64,000 bases of DNA from Desulfobacteraceae bacterium 4572_130. Its GTDB lineage: Bacteria > Desulfobacterota > Desulfobacteria > Desulfobacterales > Desulfobacteraceae. The notes under the pieces were generated by a model. It was not told the origin of the DNA. It did not search any database and was given only the letters and a program-made list of their open reading frames with translations. The DNA lies in assembly GCA_002084425.1 (NCBI GenBank), contig NBLN01000004.1, forward strand, positions 1 to 64,000, in the 5' to 3' direction. The position numbers and the translations under genes were made by a program. Below, one piece after another: positions 34,237 through 46,342 of this stretch; the first letter of the stretch is position 1, and every line of letters begins with the position of its first letter.

Positions 34237-37103
34237 GTTTCAATCCTTTATTTAGTGGAAGTGTCTCTGAAATAGGACTATGTGAATCCACAACATCCTG
34301 AATAGTCTTGGGTTTCAATCCTTTGTTTAATGGAAGTGTCTCTGAAATAGAATACTAACTAAAATAGTACAAGAATTACATCGAGGTTTCAATCCTTTGT
34401 TTAATGGAAGTGTCTCTGAAATACAATTATATAGGCACTGGAGAAATGTTTATACTCAGTTTCAATCCTTTGTTTAATGGAAGTGTCTCTGAAATAATTT
34501 ACCCTAAATTCTAACATTTAAACTTTTTTGTGTTTCAATCCTTTGTTTAATGGAAGTGTCTCTGAAATCTGTGCTTACAGCTTTACTTGAACATCTATAT
34601 TGTGGTTTCAATCCTTTGTTTAATGGAAGTGTCTCTGAAATATAACCTAAATATAATTCTATTAGGTTAAGATTGTTGTTTCAATCCTTTGTTTAATGGA
34701 AGTGTCTCTGAAATTTTTATTTTAATGGTTTAGTTAGTAAACAAACTATGTTTCAATCCTTTGTTTAATGGAAGTGTCTCTGAAATTCTTATACTTATAT
34801 TTTTGCTTACAATTTCAGCATGTTTCAATCCTTTGTTTAATGGAAGTGTCTCTGAAATCCGAGGATTTAACACAGTTAGCCCGTGCTATGATGATGTTTC
34901 AATCCTTTGTTTAATGGAAGTGTCTCTGAAATAACTTTCAAGATTGTGTTCTTTTATTTTAGCCTTAAGAGTTTCAATCCTTTGTTTAATGGAAGTGTCT
35001 CTGAAATAAGCTGTAAGCACAGGTTCGTATATTTCTACATGGGTTTCAATCCTTTGTTTAATGGAAGTGTCTCTGAAATCTTAAACAAGGGTATATAAAA
35101 AGTTTGGATTATTGTTTCAATCCTTTGTTTAATGGAAGTGTCTCTGAAATTGGCAATTTCAAAAGAATATCCGCTCTTGTCCCATCTGGTTTCAATCCTT
35201 TGTTTAATGGAAGTGTCTCTGAAATAATATGATAAGCCTTGTGAAAATACAAACCTATTGGTTTCAATCCTTTGTTTAATGGAAGTGTCTCTGAAATATA
35301 ATAGAACAATCCTTTTTGTTCATTATGTGTGGCTTGTTTCAATCCTTTGTTTAATGGAAGTGTCTCTGAAATAGATTGAAAAAAAGCACTTTATTATCTG
35401 ATTATGAAAGTTTCAATCCTTTGTTTAATGGAAGTGTCTCTGAAATCAAATTCGTAGCAAGACGCATTGTTTTTCTTTTCAGTTTCAATCCTTTGTTTAA
35501 TGGAAGTGTCTCTGAAATTGTATCAATAGCAGCAGTAACATCTGATTGACTTGCGTTTCAATCCTTTGTTTAATGGAAGTGTCTCTGAAATTTGTGCCTG
35601 CAAAATAGAACTGGGGAGATCAATTAAAGGTTTCAATCCTTTGTTTAATGGAAGTGTCTCTGAAATAGCAAGATGTAATAATAGTATATGAGGGGCTTAC
35701 AGTTTCAATCCTTTGTTTAATGGAAGTGTCTCTGAAATAAGTGTCTCTGAAATCATTAGAAAATACAAATTCAACAACACCATGGTCATAGTTTCAATCC
35801 TTTGTTTAATGGAAGTGTCTCTGAAATAATTCTTGAAACTCAACTTTAACTTGCCCCTCAACTTCGTTTCAATCCTTTGTTTAATGGAAGTGTCTCTGAA
35901 ATTTTAAACAGATTTGTCTGTAAGTGAAGACCCCTGATTGTTTCAATCCTTTGTTTAATGGAAGTGTCTCTGAAATAAGACATGAAGATCATGATCATTA
36001 GGAGTCTCTGAATGTTTCAATCCTTTGTTTAATGGAAGTGTCTTTCAATCCTTTGTTTAATGGAAGTGTCTCTGAAATCTTCATAGACTGCAATTGATCA
36101 TTTACAAGATCAGAGTTTCAATCCTTTGTTTAATGGAAGTGTCTCTGAAATTACCGTCCATTAAATTAATTACAGCATTTTCCTCAATGTTTCAATCCTT
36201 TGTTTAATGGAAGTGTCTCTGAAATGGCTGTATTTAATGCTTGTTCCCCACCTTCTTGTTTGTTTCAATCCTTTGTTTAATGGAAGTGTCTCTGAAATCT
36301 TTTTTCTTATTTTTTTAAAAAAAAACAATTATTGTTTCAATCCTTTGTTTAATGGAAGTGTCTCTGAAATCGTAGTTAATGGAAAATCATCTGAATAATC
36401 ATTCTTTTTGTTTCAATCCTTTGTTTAATGGAAGTGTCTCTGAAATAATTAATTATTTCTGCTGTTTTGGAGGGAGTTGAAAGTTTCAATCCTTTGTTTA
36501 ATGGAAGTGTCTCTGAAATTTTTTTATCCATTTTATATCCACTCCAGTATTTTATCGTTTCAATCCTTTGTTTAATGGAAGTGTCTCTGAAATTGTTTCT
36601 TTTATTTTTTAGCATTTAACCCCCTTAATGTTTCAATCCTTTGTTTAATGGAAGTGTCTCTGAAATTGGTGATGCAAGAAAACAAGTTTTTCAGGAAATG
36701 AGTTTCAATCCTTTGTTTAATGGAAGTGTCTCTGAAATAAAATAAAATTTCCTACCATTAATAAATTCACTAATTGTTTCAATCCTTTGTTTAATGGAAG
36801 TGTCTCTGAAATTTACAGGCTATAAATGTTTCCAATTCAAAAAATATAGTTTCAATCCTTTGTTTAATGGAAGTGTCTCTGAAATATCAATCAGACTTGT
36901 TGAAACAACAGGCAGATTTTGGTTTCAATCCTTTGTTTAATGGAAGTGTCTCTGAAATAATTCACGTCTTTTTTGTCAATTATTCGGTATTTCTCGTTTC
37001 AATCCTTTGTTTAATGGAAGTGTCTCTGAAATAATTTTAAGGATATCACCAATAATAAAAGGATATGTTTCAATCCTTTGTTTAATGGAAGTGTCTCTGA
37101 AAT
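34237..37103 (-). CRISPR. CRISPR array, 40 repeats, type I-B
   Basis: The 37-bp repeat reads GTTTCAATCC...GTGTCTCTGAAAT on the plus strand, so the crRNA-sense strand ends in ATTGAAAC, the usual I-B 5' handle. I count 40 repeats and 38 real spacers, mostly 34-38 bp. The repeat at 34237-34273 has two mismatches (TTTATTTAGT), which marks the leader-distal end. The array is therefore transcribed on the minus strand from near 37.1 kb, in line with the cas genes. Irregularities are a 15-bp partial repeat inside the gap at 35739-35790, and a truncated repeat fused to the next without a spacer at 36014-36078. Confidence 0.98.
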
Positions 37104-37285
37104 ACGCTTTATATTGAAATCTTAAATATAACAGGTACTTACCTTTAGTTCCCAAAATGTTTTTTTTTGAAATTTTCATTGTTTTTTAATAAATTCTCAT
37201 GTTTTTTTTATCCCCAGAATTTCCGAAATTCCTTTGTTCGCAATGTCAAAGAACAATAATTTATTTTTTAATTAATAAATTTGTC
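37104..37285 (-). promoter_or_regulatory. CRISPR leader region
   Basis: This 182-bp AT-rich sequence lies between the newest repeat (37067-37103) and cas4. It has runs of T, which are A-runs on the transcribed strand. Position, polarity and composition identify it as the leader with the array promoter; no exact promoter hexamers are assigned. Confidence 0.7.
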
Positions 37286-37867
37286 CTAGAATTCACATAA
37301 ATTTTTATAGGTGCAATCAAAACATTTATTTTTATACTTTGTAGGATTTGGAAAATAATTTTTTTCAAGGATTTCAAATATTTCCTCTACTGTTTTTTTT
37401 GCCTTGTCCTTTTGTTGTTTCCCTATTTTTATTTCTATTAATTTATTTTTTGTCCGCACATAAACTAAATATGCCCTTTCCACTTTTTTCTTATAATTTT
37501 CTTCTATTAATAATGAATAAAGTGCTTGTTGCATTTTATATGTCGTAAAAATTTTATTCTGCCAAAATGAATATTTATAATCAAGAGGTGCTGCCAAATT
37601 ATTTTCAAAAAATAAAACTTCATCAATCCTTCCCTTTAATCTTAATTTTTCAGATATTAAATATTCATCTATTTTTTTATCAACACATCCTATTTTTTTT
37701 CTTATGTAGTCTTTGTTTTGGACCATTTTTGCATTATGAATATTTCTTCCTTTTATTACAAGATGCCTGTCTTCTTCGTTTTGCTCTATTTTTAAAACAT
37801 TCATATAATAAATGAATCTTGGACAAAACATATATTCAATCACTTCTGATGGCGTTATATAAATCAT
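37286..37867 (-). CDS. cas4: Cas4 exonuclease of the adaptation module
   Basis: Cas4 trims prespacers and helps choose the PAM. The 193-residue protein has one N-terminal cluster Cys (YMFCPRF, about 15) and three C-terminal Cys (CFDCTYKNLC, about 182-191) for the 4Fe-4S cluster. The RecB-type nuclease residues are in GRIDEV (about 79) and PLDYK (about 94). Its start overlaps the cas2 stop by 4 bp. It is the gene nearest the leader. Confidence 0.92.
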   Translation of the reverse strand: MIYITPSEVIEYMFCPRFIYYMNVLKIEQNEEDRHLVIKGRNIHNAKMVQNKDYIRKKIGCVDKKIDEYLISEKLRLKGRIDEVLFFENNLAAPLDYKYSFWQNKIFTTYKMQQALYSLLIEENYKKKVERAYLVYVRTKNKLIEIKIGKQQKDKAKKTVEEIFEILEKNYFPNPTKYKNKCFDCTYKNLCEF

Positions 37868-38154
37868 ACAAAAAATGCTTTAATTTCATCTGTTATGAGT
37901 TTTTTATCAAAGGCTTGTCCAAGCAAAATACAATTTTTAAAATCATCTCTGCACATGGGAAAAATATAAACAGAATCTGTTTTTTTATTTATAACATCTT
38001 CAATTTGTGCGTTAATTTCTTTTCTCTGGGCAGGATTTAACTCTCCAAGAAAAACAGATTTTTGAACTCTGTAAATTCCTGCTTGTTTGCAAAACTTTAC
38101 GACTTTATTTCGCGATTTTGTAATTGAAATATCATACATCACCCAGGTTAACAT
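37864..38154 (-). CDS. cas2: Cas2 spacer-integration protein
   Basis: Cas2 is the central dimer of the Cas1-Cas2 integrase. The 96-residue protein starts MLTWVMYDIS, the ferredoxin-like first strand with Asp8, and continues with RVQKSVFLGEL (about 29-39), typical of the family. It is translation-coupled to cas4 and begins 35 bp after cas1. Confidence 0.94.
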   Translation of the reverse strand: MLTWVMYDISITKSRNKVVKFCKQAGIYRVQKSVFLGELNPAQRKEINAQIEDVINKKTDSVYIFPMCRDDFKNCILLGQAFDKKLITDEIKAFFV

Positions 38155-38189
38155 ATTTTTGCCACTTTATTTAAGAAAACTTTGAATTA

Positions 38190-39173
38190 TTAATAGTCCC
38201 TTTTTTTACCTATAAGATAATTTGCAAAGGAATGTGCATCTGCCTTTATCATATTAATCTGTTTCATTCGTTTGTTTTTATATTGAACTATTTTATCAAA
38301 ATTTTCATATAAATTTTCAATTAATAGTCTCTTTCCATCTTCATTTAAAAGAAAACCATTTTTTACTTTTACACAATGTTTGTCTTCCTTTATTTTCTTC
38401 CTTGAAAAAAGATAAAACACAGGCTCATCAACAAAAATTCTATACTGCTCTATAAAATCAAAAACCAGAGATTTTTTATTATAATTATCAGAATGTAAAA
38501 ATCCAATATAAGGATCAAGACCTGCTATAATAAGGGCAATTTCCACCTTTGAATAAAGCACACCATAACCATAATTTAAAAAAGCATTAAACAAATCTCT
38601 GGCAGGTCTGGTACTTCTGCCTTTAAAGGCATATTGTTCGGGAATGACTTTTGCCAAAATCTTTAAATAATTTTTCGAGGCATTACCTTCATAAGCCATA
38701 ATAGAATTTGTATTTTCCAAAAGACTTCCATCAATATTTTGTATTTTTTCTATATTTTCATTAATTTTTAAAAGCTCATTAGAATAGTCATCAGATTTTG
38801 GTCGTTTAAGGAGCAATTTTTCCAAAAAATTTATTTGATTTTGTATTTTTCTGGACACCCATTTTTTTATAATTTCAAGGGCATTATCCTCTGTATATAA
38901 TTCTAATAATTTTCTTCTTATTGCTGTAGTGCTTCCAAAACCAGGTGCCCAAACTCTTCCATATGGCTTTCCATATTTATCTAAGAAAACAATGTCTATA
39001 TTGTTCTTTACTGCAAGATTTATGGCATCAGTAGAAATTGTTGCAGCATTTGAAATAACAAGGGATGATATTTTTTTAGGAGAAAAATTTTTCTTAATAT
39101 CACCAATTTTAATTTCAAAAATTCCTTCTTTGATATGAATATATGAACCAAATTTATCTATAAAAAGTTGCAT
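38190..39173 (-). CDS. cas1: Cas1 spacer-integrase
   Basis: Cas1 is the metal-dependent integrase that inserts new spacers. The 327-residue protein has the N-terminal beta domain and LVISNAATIS...AVKNNIDIVFLD (about 38-66), then MAYEGNASKNYLK (catalytic Glu about 164), then the LHSDNYNKKSLVFDFIEQYR block (catalytic His and Asp, about 227-246). The first 84 bp, including the start codon, are duplicated at about 39686-39769, upstream of a toxin-antitoxin remnant. Confidence 0.95.
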   Translation of the reverse strand: MQLFIDKFGSYIHIKEGIFEIKIGDIKKNFSPKKISSLVISNAATISTDAINLAVKNNIDIVFLDKYGKPYGRVWAPGFGSTTAIRRKLLELYTEDNALEIIKKWVSRKIQNQINFLEKLLLKRPKSDDYSNELLKINENIEKIQNIDGSLLENTNSIMAYEGNASKNYLKILAKVIPEQYAFKGRSTRPARDLFNAFLNYGYGVLYSKVEIALIIAGLDPYIGFLHSDNYNKKSLVFDFIEQYRIFVDEPVFYLFSRKKIKEDKHCVKVKNGFLLNEDGKRLLIENLYENFDKIVQYKNKRMKQINMIKADAHSFANYLIGKKRDY

Positions 39174-39251
39174 AGTGTTTATTTTATCACCAAATTATTT
39201 AACTATATTAATGAGCAAATCTGCCCATATTCAAAAATGATATATTTATTC

Positions 39252-39374
39252 TCAAGTTAGCTCCTTTAAAAATTCACTCGGAGTCAAAATGATTAATTTT
39301 GAATTTTTATAAAATTTTGGTCGTTTTAAAATAACATCAAGAAAGATATTCGTATCTATCAAGCATTTTTTCAT
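39252..39374 (-). pseudogene. Internally deleted PIN-domain toxin (VapC-like), 40 residues
   Basis: The short frame starts at an ATG that overlaps the antitoxin stop (ATGA). It reads MKKCLIDTNIFLDVILKRP, a PIN-domain N-terminus with the first catalytic Asp, and after about 26 residues goes straight into LIILTPSEFLKELT, a typical PIN C-terminus. Full PIN toxins are about 130-145 residues, so about 100 residues are missing, with the other acidic catalytic residues. The toxin must be inactive. A clean in-frame internal deletion is the simplest explanation. Confidence 0.75.
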
Positions 39375-39640
39375 TCATATTTCTCCTGCAAATATTTCAG
39401 CTTTTCTTCCTTCCAGTTAGACATCTCAATGCCCTCAAGCAATCCATCCAAAGGATCAAAAACAGATTTTCTTTTTATTATTTCCTTTATATTAACTTTT
39501 GGAAATTCTTCTTTATTTGATATTGTTTTATCAACATTATCTTCTTCAAGAAAAGTAACTAATACTTTGCTTCGAGAAACTTTTGGCGGATTTAAAAAAT
39601 TTATTTTTCCATTATCATATATTGCTTCTAATGTTTCCAT
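39371..39640 (-). CDS. Antitoxin of a PIN-type toxin-antitoxin pair
   Basis: The protein reads METLEAIYDNGKINFLNPP..., the N-terminal form of small antitoxins that pair with PIN toxins, and ends in a charged helix (MSNWKEEKLKYLQEKYE). I chose the ATG at 39640 over the in-frame one at 39652 because family members start METxEAIYxNG. It lies between cas3 and cas1, where no such gene belongs. The toxin partner is truncated, so the antitoxin is probably a leftover. Confidence 0.7.
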   Translation of the reverse strand: METLEAIYDNGKINFLNPPKVSRSKVLVTFLEEDNVDKTISNKEEFPKVNIKEIIKRKSVFDPLDGLLEGIEMSNWKEEKLKYLQEKYE

Positions 39641-39661
39641 AGCAGCCCCCATTTAATCTGT

Positions 39662-39763
39662 TTATATGTTAATCCAATTTAATAGAATATCATCAATTTT
39701 GATTTCAAAAATTCCTTCTTTGATATGAATATATGAACCAAATTTATCTATCAAAAGTTGCAT
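39662..39763 (-). pseudogene. Duplicated 5' fragment of cas1
   Basis: The frame of 33 codons begins MQLLIDKFGSYIHIKEGIFE, almost identical to the Cas1 N-terminus (MQLFIDKF...). It diverges after about residue 26 and stops. About 84 bp around the start (39686-39769) match cas1 (39096-39180) with about four differences by eye. It directly precedes the antitoxin gene, so the toxin-antitoxin remnant lies between two copies of the cas1 5' end. Confidence 0.8.
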
Positions 39764-39806
39764 AGTGTTCTAAAATTAAATATTTTTTATTTTTTAAAAA
39801 AATCTT

Positions 39807-42191
39807 TTAAACAAAATCAACGCTTTTTTCTAAGGGAAGTTGTGAATCAATATTAAACCCAGTTATATTATCATAAAATTCTGCAACACGATTATTTCGA
39901 AGATAATAAATATTTGTATCATGTTCAGCAGGTAAGCATTTTTTAGGGATATTAATAATATATTCAAAAAGTTTTCTTCTTACTTGTTTTAAAAGAGCAT
40001 TTTTATTAAACCCATTCTCCATTTCAAGTGTATTTTGATATTTTAGCCAATAATCTTTAGCTTTTTCATCAAGTTCAACAAAAATGGAATCTGAATAATC
40101 GTTATCAATAATATCTAATTCTATTTTCCCCTCCTCTTCTTGATATTTTAAACACTCAATTCTCTTAAGAAGTATATTAGAAGATTCTTGAGAACCTCCA
40201 ACTTTTATTTCTTTAAAATATTGATATGCTAAATCATAAAATTCTGATTCATAAATAATTTCTTTGTTTTTTAAAACTTTTTTAGTTTTCTGTTTTAAAA
40301 AATCTTTATAAATTCCATCTGTTGTCCAATTATTTGAATCTTTAAGAGAGTATAAAATCACTTTCCCTTTCACGCCATTTCTATTCTCACGATTACAACG
40401 ACCGCATGCCTGAAAAATACTATCTAATGGAGCAAAATCTCTAACAACAATATCTAAATCAATATCAACACCCGCTTCAACAAGTTGAGTAGATACAACA
40501 AGAATTGGTTTCCCTTTTTCTTTGTTCTTAATATATTCAATTCTTCTTAATCTTTCTTTTGGAATGATATGAGATGATAAAAAGAAAACTTTATGAACGA
40601 TATTATTTTTTGATAATACATCAAACAATTGTTTTGCCGAACGAATTGTATTCATTATAAAGAGAATATTTTTTTCTGAGTTATCCATTGCTAATGTTAT
40701 AGCTGAATCACAAAATTCGTCCCAATTCATTCTTCCTTTATTTAAGTTTAATACATCTAATTCAATACGGCTGAGTTTTTGGAACATCTCTTTTTTACCT
40801 TTAATCAATTCAATAATTTCATTATTTTCTTCTGAAAAAATCAATGGCATTGTTGCTGTAACTAATATTATTTTTGAATTTAACCATTTCGCTGTTTTTG
40901 ATAAAATTGTTTTAATCAAACTCCAATATTTATGAGGTATTGATTGAATCTCATCAAGAATAATAACAGCATTGCTAAAACGATTAAATTTTCTTAAACT
41001 TGAATTTTTGTATGAAATAAGAGAATAGATCAATTGAACAAAGGTAGTAACTGTTATTTTACTTTCCCAACCTTCAATTAAATGTAAAGCTTCATTTGGT
41101 AAATATTCCTTAATTATATTTTCCTCTTTAACTATTTTATACGAAATATCTGCTAAATGATGATGTTTTAATAAAACACCTGTACTATCAGGTAGTTTTG
41201 CAATCTCACAAATCTTATCAAACACTTCAAAATTTTGATCAATTACTGATGTAAATGGCAGGCAATAAATAATATGGTCATGGTTAAACTTTTCACACAA
41301 TTTTAATGCCGCATTAAGTGACGTAATAGTTTTACCTGATCCTGTTGGAATATTAATCGATAAAATTCTATTATCTGATTTTAAATTATTAATTGTTTCA
41401 ATTGCAGAGTAAAAAGCATTTTCGCGAATAACATCAATGGGTTTTTCAAGATTATTATTAAAGCTGTTTTTAAATGATTCCACATTTTTACTTTTTAACA
41501 ATTCAAATTGAGGAACTTTATCATCTTTTAAAATAGCATCTGTTTTATCAGCTTGGAGCAGTATTGAATATAATAAATTTACTACAAAATAATGCTCAAT
41601 TGTAAAATTTCGGCTTAATCGCTTTATTTTCAAGGGTGTTCTTGGTTGAAAACATTTAACTGATTGTTTTATAAAATCTTTATTTATAAAATCTTTATTT
41701 ATAAAACTTGTATAATCACTATTTGAAACAATATTTTGAAATTCATTAAAATTAAGATTCTCTATCTGTAACAGGACATTGCTTAAATCTTTATCTTTAA
41801 ATGTTAGTAAAATTTTATAATCATTTAAATTTCCATGGTGTTGCCTAACAATTATTAATCCAATTAATTGTAAAATCAGATTGTTAGGTATCTTTTCTTG
41901 TAAAATACCAAAAGCCATTAATGCAGAAATTAAGCCGTGCCTGCGTTTTTTTCTATCCTCCTCAGTAGAACTAACATCAGGATTTAAAAGATATTCTTGA
42001 AAAAAAGAAGTCGCTTTCCCAAAATCATGAAAAAGAGAGGTTATAGAAACAACCCTTCTTAATTCTTCACGCTTAAAATTAGAAAAATCAAATTTTAGTT
42101 TATCAAATAATAAAAGAGCTTTATTTTGAACTCCTAAAATATGATCTTTCAACAATCTGTCTGGATGTGATTTTAGTTTATAATTGTACAA
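39807..42191 (-). CDS. cas3: Cas3 HD nuclease-helicase
   Basis: Cas3 unwinds and degrades DNA marked by Cascade. The 794-residue protein has an N-terminal HD domain (HDFGKATSFF, about 54-63, and HGLISALMAFG, about 85). The DEAD-like helicase has TGSGKTITSLNAALK (about 285) and DEIQSIP (about 417), and the C-terminal RecA domain has STQLVEAGVDIDLDIVVRD (about 568) and a QACGRCNR-type motif. A small in-frame tandem duplication gives FINKDFINKDF near 165. Its start overlaps the cas5 stop by 14 bp. Confidence 0.94.
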   Translation of the reverse strand: MYNYKLKSHPDRLLKDHILGVQNKALLLFDKLKFDFSNFKREELRRVVSITSLFHDFGKATSFFQEYLLNPDVSSTEEDRKKRRHGLISALMAFGILQEKIPNNLILQLIGLIIVRQHHGNLNDYKILLTFKDKDLSNVLLQIENLNFNEFQNIVSNSDYTSFINKDFINKDFIKQSVKCFQPRTPLKIKRLSRNFTIEHYFVVNLLYSILLQADKTDAILKDDKVPQFELLKSKNVESFKNSFNNNLEKPIDVIRENAFYSAIETINNLKSDNRILSINIPTGSGKTITSLNAALKLCEKFNHDHIIYCLPFTSVIDQNFEVFDKICEIAKLPDSTGVLLKHHHLADISYKIVKEENIIKEYLPNEALHLIEGWESKITVTTFVQLIYSLISYKNSSLRKFNRFSNAVIILDEIQSIPHKYWSLIKTILSKTAKWLNSKIILVTATMPLIFSEENNEIIELIKGKKEMFQKLSRIELDVLNLNKGRMNWDEFCDSAITLAMDNSEKNILFIMNTIRSAKQLFDVLSKNNIVHKVFFLSSHIIPKERLRRIEYIKNKEKGKPILVVSTQLVEAGVDIDLDIVVRDFAPLDSIFQACGRCNRENRNGVKGKVILYSLKDSNNWTTDGIYKDFLKQKTKKVLKNKEIIYESEFYDLAYQYFKEIKVGGSQESSNILLKRIECLKYQEEEGKIELDIIDNDYSDSIFVELDEKAKDYWLKYQNTLEMENGFNKNALLKQVRRKLFEYIINIPKKCLPAEHDTNIYYLRNNRVAEFYDNITGFNIDSQLPLEKSVDFV

Positions 42192-42891
42192 TATAATCTT
42201 TTCCTACTTTTGTAACATTTCCAACAATTGCTTTAATTGATTTGCCATCACTATCAAAAAGATATTCACCATATTTTTCAACAATTCTACTATTATTCGA
42301 TTTCATTCTAACTGGAATATTATTAATAAATATTTTACGATTTTCAAAATCAATTTCTTCATTTTTACCAATTGAACGCTTGGAAATTATGGAATTTATT
42401 TCATAGAATTTATTATTTGATTTTACTTTTTCTTCTTCAAAAAAACCAATATATTTAAAATCTGCAAGATTCCATGCTAAACCTAATGATGCAGTATAAA
42501 AAGATTCATGATTTTGAAGATTTGCAACTAATTTTGAAAATAATTCTGCATTTTCCCAGGAAAACCACACTCTAAATTTTCCATCTTTAATAAATTCCAT
42601 TGTAGTTTGTTTGTGTGCTTTAAAACGATAAAAATGTTTTACACTTGTAGTTTTTAAAGTATTAAAAGGAATAACTACTTTTTTTATTACATCCCGTACT
42701 CCAATTGCTAATGAATATGATTCTTTTTGAAAATACTCCCAATATTTATTTTTATCTAATCCAATAATTGCAGAAATTAATCCAACAATTGCAGTTCCAG
42801 TTGGGATGCTAAATGTTTGCGGAGACATTGTTGTAAAGGGCTTCTTAAATTGTGCATAATCTGCCCAAATATCAAAAACAACATATTTCAT
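42178..42891 (-). CDS. cas5: Cas5 (type I-B, Cas5h/b)
   Basis: Cas5 holds the 5' handle of the crRNA in Cascade. The 237-residue protein starts with a RAMP-type strand (VVFDIWADYAQFKKP) and has the family segment IPTGTAIVGLISAIIGL (about 29-45). It lies between cas7 and cas3, the usual I-B order, with a 9-bp gap after cas7. Confidence 0.92.
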   Translation of the reverse strand: MKYVVFDIWADYAQFKKPFTTMSPQTFSIPTGTAIVGLISAIIGLDKNKYWEYFQKESYSLAIGVRDVIKKVVIPFNTLKTTSVKHFYRFKAHKQTTMEFIKDGKFRVWFSWENAELFSKLVANLQNHESFYTASLGLAWNLADFKYIGFFEEEKVKSNNKFYEINSIISKRSIGKNEEIDFENRKIFINNIPVRMKSNNSRIVEKYGEYLFDSDGKSIKAIVGNVTKVGKDYIVQL

Positions 42892-42900
42892 AATTTTCTC

Positions 42901-43923
42901 CTACAATGTTAATTTTATCCAATCTGATGGAATATCAACTCTCAACCCGCTGTCCATAAAATATTCAATTGATTCAATTTTATCATTATTTTCTTTAAGC
43001 GCATCATTTAATTCACTCATATCTAATTTAAAATCTTTAATACTACGAATTTTAAATTCATTATCAAAATTTGTCAGTTTGATTTTTTTATCCAAATCTC
43101 CAATAAAAAAATTTGAGTATCTATAATTTACTTTAACTAAGAAGCGTGGCATTTGTCCAAATTTACTTCTACTTATCAAATTTTTTGTTCCAAGCCACAT
43201 TCCTTCAAGAAGTAATTTAACATCAGCATCTGTCATCTTTGTATGTTGTGCTGCATTTTGATTTATAATTCCATGGAAAGCTATAAATGAATATGGAAGA
43301 ATATATTCAGGTGCAAGAGAACCTTGCTTTTTTTTTTCTCCAGATGACATTGTAAAGGAATGTCCATTAGGCTTTATCCTTACCTCGTGTAACGATCTTC
43401 CTATTTTAAATTGCACAGGTCCTGTATAAGTTATTGAGCTTGTAAATTTCCCCCCCCCCATTTTTGTTTTTGGAAATTCAACAGCGTAAGTTGCACCAAA
43501 TAAACGGGTATCAATATTTTCATTTAAAATTGTTTTTCCTATAATTTTTTTAAGGTTTTGAGCATCTTTTATTGTAATTTTATCTTTAAGATATTTTTTA
43601 ACCAATTCAATTTCATTTTTATCAGCTAATCCATCTGTTTTGATAAAATCCATTACTCGTTGTTTAATATCCTTAACATATTCATCTTCATCTTTGATTT
43701 CACGAATAAAAATATCTTTTCCATTTTTACCATTAAATCCTTTGTGTTCAAAAAAATAATCACGAATAGTTCGTTTTAACCGAACATCTGTTACAAAATT
43801 AATATTTGTTTCCTCATCAATTCTTGGTTTATTTTCATCAAGTGGATCTCCGTTTGGATTTGCATCTGTAATATCATAACAAAAAAGTAATTCACTGCGG
43901 TTTTTAATTGTTTCACTCATCAT
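42901..43923 (-). CDS. cas7: Cas7 (Csh2-type) Cascade backbone protein
   Basis: Cas7 forms the crRNA-coating backbone. The 340-residue protein starts with the Csh2 signature (LLFCYDITDANPNGDPLDEN, about 13-32), then VTDVRLKRTIRDYF (about 44-57), then the central loop with GGGKFTSSITYTG. A run of ten G on the coding strand (43450-43459) encodes MGGG at about residues 155-158. Its length variation would shift the frame. It overlaps cas8b by 11 bp. Confidence 0.93.
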   Translation of the reverse strand: MMSETIKNRSELLFCYDITDANPNGDPLDENKPRIDEETNINFVTDVRLKRTIRDYFFEHKGFNGKNGKDIFIREIKDEDEYVKDIKQRVMDFIKTDGLADKNEIELVKKYLKDKITIKDAQNLKKIIGKTILNENIDTRLFGATYAVEFPKTKMGGGKFTSSITYTGPVQFKIGRSLHEVRIKPNGHSFTMSSGEKKKQGSLAPEYILPYSFIAFHGIINQNAAQHTKMTDADVKLLLEGMWLGTKNLISRSKFGQMPRFLVKVNYRYSNFFIGDLDKKIKLTNFDNEFKIRSIKDFKLDMSELNDALKENNDKIESIEYFMDSGLRVDIPSDWIKLTL

Positions 43924-45646
43924 TTTCTCCTTTTTCTTTTTCTTTATTTTTAAATTTTTTGTTTAGAGACATTCCCATTGCAAAGTAAAAACTAATTTCA
44001 TCTACACTTTGTAATTTAAGTTTTTGCTCACTTATTTCTATTAATTGAAAAATATTTTTTTCTAAATCATAATAATAATTTGACTTGTATTGTTCCAATT
44101 TTTCAATTGCCTCAGGCAATAAACGCTTAATTGCGCTAACATCTAATTTTAATCCATTTAAACGACTTCTAAAGGGTCTTGATTTAAGATTTATATATTG
44201 TATATCCATTACATTTTGAGCTAAAACTCCTGTTAGAAATACTGCTTTTTTCCAATTTGCATCATAAAAATCTGGATGCAATTGGAAATACTCTTCATAT
44301 TTATTTTGCATTATTACCTCCATTTTATTTTTTGTTGTTTCAATCAAACTCATTTCATATAAAAATTTAAGAAATATCATTGCTTTCAAACAATCAAACT
44401 GCCTTTTTTCTTTCAGATATTTTTGAATATCTGATTTTTCAATACGATGATTTTCAGCTAATCGTTCAGAAATTTGATAATAAATAAATGATTTACTTAT
44501 TTTCTGGCCCTTTAAAATTTTTGTTGTAATATCTAAAAAATCATTATTAATCTCCACGTTTTTCTTTGCTTTAATTATTTTTTGAAATCGTGAGGGCAAA
44601 ATATCTTCAGCTTCTTGTAAAATTTTAAACTCACTATTTTTTACTTTATAGAAAAAAAAGGTAAAAGTAATTTGATCCTTTTGTTTTGATAATGTTTCAA
44701 AAATATCATCTTCCAAATCACCTCTTATTTTTTGTTTTTCTTCATTTTTTTTGCTTAATGATAAATCCTTAAAATCTTCCTCAATATCTAATAAATTTTC
44801 ATAAAAATCACCTTTGTCTAATGTTGGACTTGGAATTAAAAAATATTTATTTCCATAAAAATACCTATCAAAATTTTTATTTAATTTTTCTTTTGCAAGG
44901 CGAAGATGATTGGAACAAATAGGACAAACAGGATAATTTTTCCATGTTTTATCTTGCTGAAATCCTCCAGCAATATAGGCAAATTCATTTGCCGAATAAA
45001 ATGCAAAAGTACTACAAAAACCGTATAATTTTTTTGAAGTTTTACCACAAATATAGCAAGGAATATTTTCTCCAATAGAAGTTTTATTATGTTTTGAAAA
45101 ATATTCTTTATCTCTATCATTTGAGTTTTTATAAAAATCAAGAATTGGATAAAATAATGGAGAATCTCCAATAAATAGATTGTTAATTTTTATAGTAAAT
45201 AAATTATTTTTTTCTGCTGATAAAAATTCAAAAATCTCTTCTTCTAATAAATCTCTATTTTTATCAATTTTTAAAAAATTTAAAACAGGTTTTAAATCAG
45301 AATTCATTTCAGTATTATTTTCTATAGTTCCTATAAATTTATTAAAGGATTTTCTAATATTTTCTTTACATTCCATTTCCTTCTTATTGAAAAATACGCT
45401 ATATGTTGCAAATGGTGATCTTGAATTACTACCTGCTTTTTTATATAATATTTTATTATTTTTCTTTTGCTCAAATTCAATCGTATCAGATTCTATAAAA
45501 TTACAAATGCCATCTTTTAAATCAAATTCTAAAACAATAATATTTGCTTCCTTTAAAGACAGATTTAATCCCAATAAATTTTCCTTTTCTTCCTCTTTTT
45601 CCTTTTTTGATACATATTTTCCTAATATTTTTAATTTATTTATCAT
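43913..45646 (-). CDS. cas8b: Cas8b (Csh1/TM1802-type) Cascade large subunit
   Basis: Cas8b recognises the PAM and nucleates R-loop formation. The 577-residue protein has an N-terminal Lys/Glu-rich part and a four-Cys zinc site (CYICG, about 197-201, and CPIC, about 240-243) diagnostic of the TM1802 family. A helical C-terminal small-subunit-like region (about 400-577) follows. Position between cas6 and cas7 supports the call. Confidence 0.88.
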   Translation of the reverse strand: MINKLKILGKYVSKKEKEEEKENLLGLNLSLKEANIIVLEFDLKDGICNFIESDTIEFEQKKNNKILYKKAGSNSRSPFATYSVFFNKKEMECKENIRKSFNKFIGTIENNTEMNSDLKPVLNFLKIDKNRDLLEEEIFEFLSAEKNNLFTIKINNLFIGDSPLFYPILDFYKNSNDRDKEYFSKHNKTSIGENIPCYICGKTSKKLYGFCSTFAFYSANEFAYIAGGFQQDKTWKNYPVCPICSNHLRLAKEKLNKNFDRYFYGNKYFLIPSPTLDKGDFYENLLDIEEDFKDLSLSKKNEEKQKIRGDLEDDIFETLSKQKDQITFTFFFYKVKNSEFKILQEAEDILPSRFQKIIKAKKNVEINNDFLDITTKILKGQKISKSFIYYQISERLAENHRIEKSDIQKYLKEKRQFDCLKAMIFLKFLYEMSLIETTKNKMEVIMQNKYEEYFQLHPDFYDANWKKAVFLTGVLAQNVMDIQYINLKSRPFRSRLNGLKLDVSAIKRLLPEAIEKLEQYKSNYYYDLEKNIFQLIEISEQKLKLQSVDEISFYFAMGMSLNKKFKNKEKEKGENDE

Positions 45647-45685
45647 ATTTCAAACTCCTTTTTTTTCATTTCCAATCCTTATGTT

Positions 45686-46342
45686 TCACACCACCCCAAA
45701 CCCCCTTGCAACAGATTTGCCAAGTCCGAGCAGAGTTGGGATATGGAAACTCACTTTAAAATTACACTCAAAGCATTGCATTTTTTGGTTCTTGAAATTT
45801 ACTTTTATTGGTTTTAAATTGTTGATTTTGCAGGAAAGTTTGGTTGTGTCTGGGATTGTATAATTGAAATTTTTGCTGAGGGATAAAAGATTGCCAACCA
45901 GGATATTTTCAAGAAGCATCTGCTTTTGGGCAAAAATTTTGGAATTGATATATTTTTTGTGGTTTTCTTGATTTAGAGCCATCCAGGGAGAAATGAATTT
46001 ATATTTTATGTGATTTTTGGAAATGCCAAAGTCATATTCTTTTAAGGATATTTGTTTTTCATTACATGGATAAATTTTGGAGCCTATTTTAATTTCTTCC
46101 ACCTCAAAAAATATCTTTTTAAGAAGATTTAATCCATCACCAAAGCCGATGAGAGCGGCTTTGCCATTGATATTCCGATATTGTATATTGGGAAGTTTGT
46201 AAATAAATTTATCGCCATTATGATTATGCAAATTTACATATTCGGGATATTTGTTGGCAAAAAATCCCCTAAGCTTTGGAATATCCCTTGGATAAATTGC
46301 AATGTCTTGAAATATTATTTTTAAAATTTTTACTTTCATCAT
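45686..46342 (-). CDS. cas6: Cas6 crRNA-processing endoribonuclease
   Basis: Cas6 cuts pre-crRNA within the repeats. The 218-residue protein ends in the Gly-rich loop typical of Cas6 (PTLLGLGKSVARGFGVV). The middle contains a RAMP-type segment (IQYRNINGKAALIGFGDG, about 53-70). It is the first gene of the cas operon on the minus strand; 39 bp separate it from cas8b. Upstream lies a transposase remnant. Confidence 0.88.
   Translation of the reverse strand: MMKVKILKIIFQDIAIYPRDIPKLRGFFANKYPEYVNLHNHNGDKFIYKLPNIQYRNINGKAALIGFGDGLNLLKKIFFEVEEIKIGSKIYPCNEKQISLKEYDFGISKNHIKYKFISPWMALNQENHKKYINSKIFAQKQMLLENILVGNLLSLSKNFNYTIPDTTKLSCKINNLKPIKVNFKNQKMQCFECNFKVSFHIPTLLGLGKSVARGFGVV

Follow-up and report, generated by a model that had tools for sequence, protein, structure and literature searches.

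Type I-B CRISPR-Cas systems carry Cas8b (Csh1-TM1802), Csh2, Cas5b, and Cas6b, and their genes are arranged in the order cas6-8-7-5-3-1-2-4. Priming in Haloarcula hispanica (type I-B) and Pectobacterium (type I-F) yields neighboring protospacers on both strands with the interference genes present, and it is defined by its dependence on a pre-existing match. In Haloferax volcanii, low-level naive type I-B acquisition occurs, and overexpressed Cas1-2-4 gave no clear strand preference or consensus PAM, as described in part of PMC7521656. In Sulfolobus solfataricus, overlapping spacers were derived from one element, the plasmid pMGB1, which is a known element for which many spacers were sequenced (the relevant portion of PMC4390879). 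On the Runella rosea plasmid NZ_CP030854.1, a match resembling the array studied here is followed by cas4, cas2, cas1, and a cas6. A literature search for overlapping spacers from opposite strands in CRISPR retrieved no matching paper.

We analyzed a stretch of 64,000 nucleotides from Desulfobacteraceae bacterium 4572_130 (positions 1 to 64,000 of contig NBLN01000004.1; the window). Its CRISPR-Cas locus resembled type I-B in its eight genes, its ATTGAAAC repeat end, and the array adjoining the genes, and the gene order was the same. Unlike in type I-B, a toxin-antitoxin-like remnant and a partial second cas1 start were located between cas3 and cas1. A search of 97 further genomes of the family and the order, allowing up to three mismatches, found the repeat of the array in none of them. 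The order of the adaptation genes was shared with the Runella plasmid, which differs in being a Bacteroidota plasmid, and no spacer was shown to be common to it and the array. The repeat was not found in the 97 relatives, and a similar array match lies on this plasmid; horizontal transfer is possible. As in Haloarcula and Pectobacterium priming, interference genes were present and the pair would represent neighboring protospacers on both strands, and as in the pMGB1 case, spacers overlapped; here, however, there is one pair in one assembly.

Type I-B genes and array structure

All eight cas genes on the minus strand (37286-46342) were open and scored with I-B or general Cas models (Table 1). 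The type I-B effector set (cas8b, cas7b, and cas5b) was present together with cas3, as were the adaptation genes cas1, cas2, and cas4. The array is part of a type I-B system that looks complete and shows no obvious break.

Table 1. Features of the CRISPR-Cas locus, with positions in the window.
Feature	Position	Strand	Remarks
CRISPR array	34237..37103	(-), putative transcription strand	39 full 37-nt repeats, one truncated repeat, 38 spacers
Degenerate terminal repeat	34237..34273	(-)	two mismatches; marks the leader-distal, oldest end
Spacer 5 (putative older of pair)	34569..34604	(-)	36 nt; PAM-distal 15 nt overlap spacer 11
Spacer 11 (putative newer of pair)	35008..35042	(-)	35 nt; PAM-distal 15 nt reverse-complementary to the corresponding 15 nt of spacer 5
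Spacer 38, leader-proximal (newest)	37033..37066	(-)	perfect match to host bioY
Presumed leader	37104..37285	(-)	AT-rich stretch between cas4 and array; putative assignment from sequence
cas4	37286..37867	(-)	model match Cas4b
cas2	37864..38154	(-)	model match Cas2b
cas1	38190..39173	(-)	model match Cas1b
cas3 (HD + helicase)	39807..42191	(-)	model match Cas3b
cas5b	42178..42891	(-)	Cas model match
cas7b (csh2)	42901..43923	(-)	Cas model match
cas8b (TM1802/csh1)	43913..45646	(-)	Cas model match
cas6b	45686..46342	(-)	Cas model match

The interval between cas3 and cas1 (39174-39806) contained a 93-aa ORF at 39371-39652 with no Pfam match, together with a short fragment resembling PIN_3 (E = 0.0045, below the Pfam cut-off). 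An 84-bp segment at the cas1 start (39096-39179) recurred at 39686-39769 as a second copy with 96% identity. A toxin-antitoxin insertion appears to have decayed in this interval, and the cas1 start to have been duplicated.

The full repeats were identical in 37 of 39 cases, and the remaining two carried one and two mismatches. A truncated 29-nt repeat (36014-36042) abutted a full repeat without an intervening spacer, probably through slippage or faulty integration. At 35739-35753, the final 15 nt of the repeat (in window orientation) were tandemly duplicated ahead of spacer 21.

Transcription of the array most likely proceeds on the minus strand, because the minus-strand cas operon adjoins its high end and the degenerate repeat lies at its low end. 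The minus-strand repeat also ends in ATTGAAAC, and this points the same way, since many type I and III repeats have this motif at their 3' end, where it gives rise to the 5' handle of the crRNA (PMC8482600). With this direction, spacer 38 would be the newest, and spacer 11 would be younger than spacer 5.

Spacers 5 and 11 and the joined 56-bp contig

Spacer 5 starts with CTGTGCTTACAGCTT and spacer 11 with AAGCTGTAAGCACAG, and both the positions and the starting sequences agreed exactly with the original prediction. A direct sequence check confirmed that the two share an exact 15-nt reverse-complement overlap, as had been claimed, and this overlap ends at both spacer edges. The 15-mer occurred at these two places only in the whole 1.94-Mb assembly, once per strand. 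The joined length (36 + 35 - 15 = 56 bp) supported the further claim that a stretch of about 56 bp, captured from opposite strands, can be rebuilt. In the 38-spacer array, five spacers (6-10) separate spacer 5 from spacer 11. Very probably, both spacers derive from a single 56-bp stretch, presumably continuous, or from near-identical copies; a 15-nt identity does not distinguish a single locus from duplicates or relatives of it.

In type I systems, the PAM is located 5' of the protospacer (PMC8482600). Spacers 5 and 11 both terminate, in the crRNA sense, in the shared 15 nt, which would therefore be PAM-distal, and both PAMs would fall outside the 56-bp contig, one past either end, so that the contig gives no basis for a common-PAM comparison. 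The overlap-side flanks supplied by the contig (AAC and GTA) were unlike, as would be expected of PAM-distal flanks.

A small inverted repeat (CTGT-GCTT-ACAG) was read from the sequence inside the shared 15-mer, and hairpins were also obtained in folding. The two crRNAs were predicted to pair through the shared 15 nt (cofold of -25.8 kcal/mol). The idea that this pairing is a regulatory device was dropped, as it follows automatically from the overlap.

Probable double capture at one place and competing readings

Our main reading, with a probability of about 0.88, is that the same place was captured twice from opposite strands by the type I-B system, spacer 5 first. Spacer 5 would have been inserted, five further spacers (6-10) would have been inserted next, and spacer 11 would then have been captured from the opposite strand at the place of spacer 5. 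In each capture, Cas4-Cas1-Cas2 would trim the prespacer beside its own PAM; the PAMs would face outward, with 15 bp at the PAM-distal ends common to the two protospacers. This account presumes the reading direction (hence the age order and the PAM side), a foreign source, and standard PAM use. The evidence for it includes the only long overlap among the 38 spacers, which indicates that the array very probably sampled one site at least twice. The overlapping pair is an expected trace of normal immune sampling, of an ordinary kind and without a new mechanism, and the joined 56 bp can serve as a probe for the presumed invader of this low-GC host, a stronger one than either of the two spacers. 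A single capture event cut into two spacers was also considered and dropped, as the shared 15 bp would need to be used twice.

In favor of a chance match between two unrelated spacers, 3 of 150 letter-shuffled spacer sets contained shared exact words of at least 15 nt at any position. This is the weaker and looser test, and it was performed, like the any-position comparison of the real spacers, with a preliminary list of 35 spacers; in that comparison across all spacer pairs in both orientations, the longest shared word was that of spacers 5 and 11, and the next was 12 nt. Two spacers cut from one DNA must overlap at their edges, and this pair does. With the full list of 38 spacers, the best edge-to-edge overlap (dovetail) was 15 nt and that of the next real pair was 9 nt, while dovetails of at least 15 nt were obtained in 0 of 1500 first-order Markov spacer sets (maximum of 13). 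Analytically, dovetails of 15 nt were expected 3.5e-5 times overall and 1.1e-6 times with this 15-mer, which is GC-balanced; the shared word is not A/T-rich. As the any-position shuffles do reach 15 nt, the significance is carried by the edge-to-edge geometry and the base composition, not by bare length. Chance is very improbable as an explanation, in line with the original prediction, which had held such an end match to be very unlikely by chance. The spacers could also come from different places sharing a longer inverted or duplicated segment (e.g., terminal inverted repeats or related viruses), in which case the 56-bp contig would be a false join. Any shared segment longer than 15 would look identical, and the 15-mer does contain a small inverted repeat, but the extra assumption that is required and the failure to find such an element make this reading unlikely.

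Primed and unprimed sampling are both sub-cases of the two-capture account. For unclustered sampling, the expected number of opposite-strand overlaps ranged from <=0.001 to 3.7, depending on the spacer number and the element size. For overlaps of at least 10 nt and a 40-kb element, it was approximately 0.001 with two spacers from that element and 0.47 with all 38; with 20 spacers from a 5-kb element, it was 1.0. The value of approximately 0.001 implies that either many spacers share a source or sampling was locally clustered; no other array spacers could be tied to the target of the pair. If much of the array was sampled without priming from one small element or a capture hotspot, the overlap would be a coincidence of the kind expected (0.47 and 1.0 in the two larger cases), although a second overlap was not seen and only spacer 38 could be mapped; we give this close to an even chance. 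In primed adaptation, the crRNA of spacer 5 would have met an escape variant or a re-infecting element and recruited Cas3, which would have driven the capture of spacer 11 from the other strand at this site. The open cas3 and cas8b are consistent with priming, as is the younger age of spacer 11 if the leader is at 37104-37285, and the clustering that priming brings is favored because a pair of this kind would be rare if only a few spacers had a common source. Passages of PMC4117759 report that type I-B priming in H. hispanica yields spacers to either strand and that new type I-F protospacers cluster near the primed one. The pair is, however, a single one with five visibly unrelated spacers intervening; no PAM, escape mutation, or further same-target spacers could be demonstrated; and naive type I-B sampling has also been reported (PMC7521656). 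The opposite strands seen in the pair do not discriminate priming for type I-B, and priming is a tentative explanation that falls somewhat short of even odds. The repeated sampling of one region proposed in the original prediction was supported, whereas the qualification 'as in primed adaptation' was not supported as stated, since primed and naive sampling both fit.

Searches for the source and the self-matching spacer 38

The joined contig, whose target the original prediction had called unknown, was found in none of the collections searched. Among phages, the 56-bp contig gave one partial match (24 nt, E = 1), and among plasmids, 29 Escherichia records (E up to 10) included no credible target, with a 19-nt word (E = 4) common to the matches listed. 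In IMG/VR, no loci were retrieved with an exact 21-mer of the contig or with the degenerate patterns EIYEPVLT and PVLTALLE, and the three loci retrieved with degenerate KAVSTGSYI had flanks that did not continue the contig. The 24 loci with an exact 17-mer (25-32 of 56 bases matching) were taken as chance. One locus with an exact 18-mer, matching over 24 nt with one mismatch, was rejected for its 53% GC and lack of continuation, and one with an exact 19-mer, because its 21-nt match did not continue and the frame there is closed in the 56-bp contig; the ORFs on the contig of the latter locus look like what we take to be phage rIIA/rIIB. Those IMG/VR matches that were aligned to the whole contig agreed with it in at most 32 of 56 bases.

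An exact 23-mer of the contig was found in 0 genome contigs, and the contig pattern with up to three mismatches was matched once in 389 order-sampled genomes (host included), by the host array itself. Outside the array, the host assembly gave no credible contig match; two matches there, of 17 and 19 nt (E = 0.8 and 1.5), were at chance level. The source therefore does not belong to the known portion of the host genome; as the assembly is only 80% complete, the source may lie in an unassembled part of the host. Two of the six frames of the contig were open (HVEIYEPVLTALLEHLYC and QYRCSSKAVSTGSYISTW), which is no evidence of coding because approximately 49% of shuffled contigs had at least two open frames. 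Degenerate EIYEPVLT, taken from the frame HVEIYEPVLTALLEHLYC, was found in genome contigs at 25 loci with 7-11 of 18 residues identical, although the pattern itself fixes eight of the 18 positions and its Leu codons also admit Phe. By eye, 16 of these 25 loci resembled saccharopine dehydrogenases; of three tested with Pfam, two were saccharopine dehydrogenases and one was a PucR-type regulator. The best agreement (11 of 18 residues) was with a protein other than saccharopine dehydrogenase, and the saccharopine-dehydrogenase-like gene of the host itself was without EIYEPVLT.

When the whole array stretch was searched, no credible protospacer was found among phages, where two records for a single staphylococcal phage matched over 28 nt (E = 0.8), or among plasmids, where the match was the Runella CRISPR array. 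A degenerate IMG/VR scan with spacer 9 gave two chance loci only. Spacer 8 (34795-34825) agreed with host contig C23 (58421-58451) in 27 of 31 bases, a few of which belong to the repeat (E = 0.0086); in an AT-rich genome, this is probably a chance resemblance.

Spacer 38 was identical over 34 nt (37 nt including three repeat-shared bases) to positions 49898-49934 of contig C8 of the same assembly. It was the only array spacer with a perfect host-genome match, the next best being weak or straddling repeats, and this self match was the sole protospacer found for the array. The match lies inside a 177-aa ORF scoring as BioY, which adjoins genes for biotin protein ligase and for ABC and CbiQ transporters. 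A spacer equal to a host gene indicates that the system can capture chromosomal DNA, which makes a chromosomal origin of the overlapping pair slightly likelier. The array may record chromosomal-type genes and not viruses alone, and the pair could be derived from a kin strain's or a plasmid's metabolic gene; the bioY copy and the occurrence of EIYEPVLT near the end of saccharopine dehydrogenase would support this, but the residues past EIYEPVLT depart from the enzyme pattern and the search pattern itself set eight positions, and we consider it very unlikely.

The 5' flank of the bioY protospacer was GGGAGT (AGT adjacent), and Table 1 of PMC8482600 has no type I-B PAM that fits this flank. Such a non-PAM flank would explain the tolerance of spacer 38; alternatively, the capture may have been very recent, the system may be silenced, or an anti-CRISPR protein may act. 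Spacer 38 is an ordinary finding; as a self-matching, probably newest spacer beside type I-B genes that look intact, it adds a small extra case to the known question of how cells tolerate self-matching spacers.
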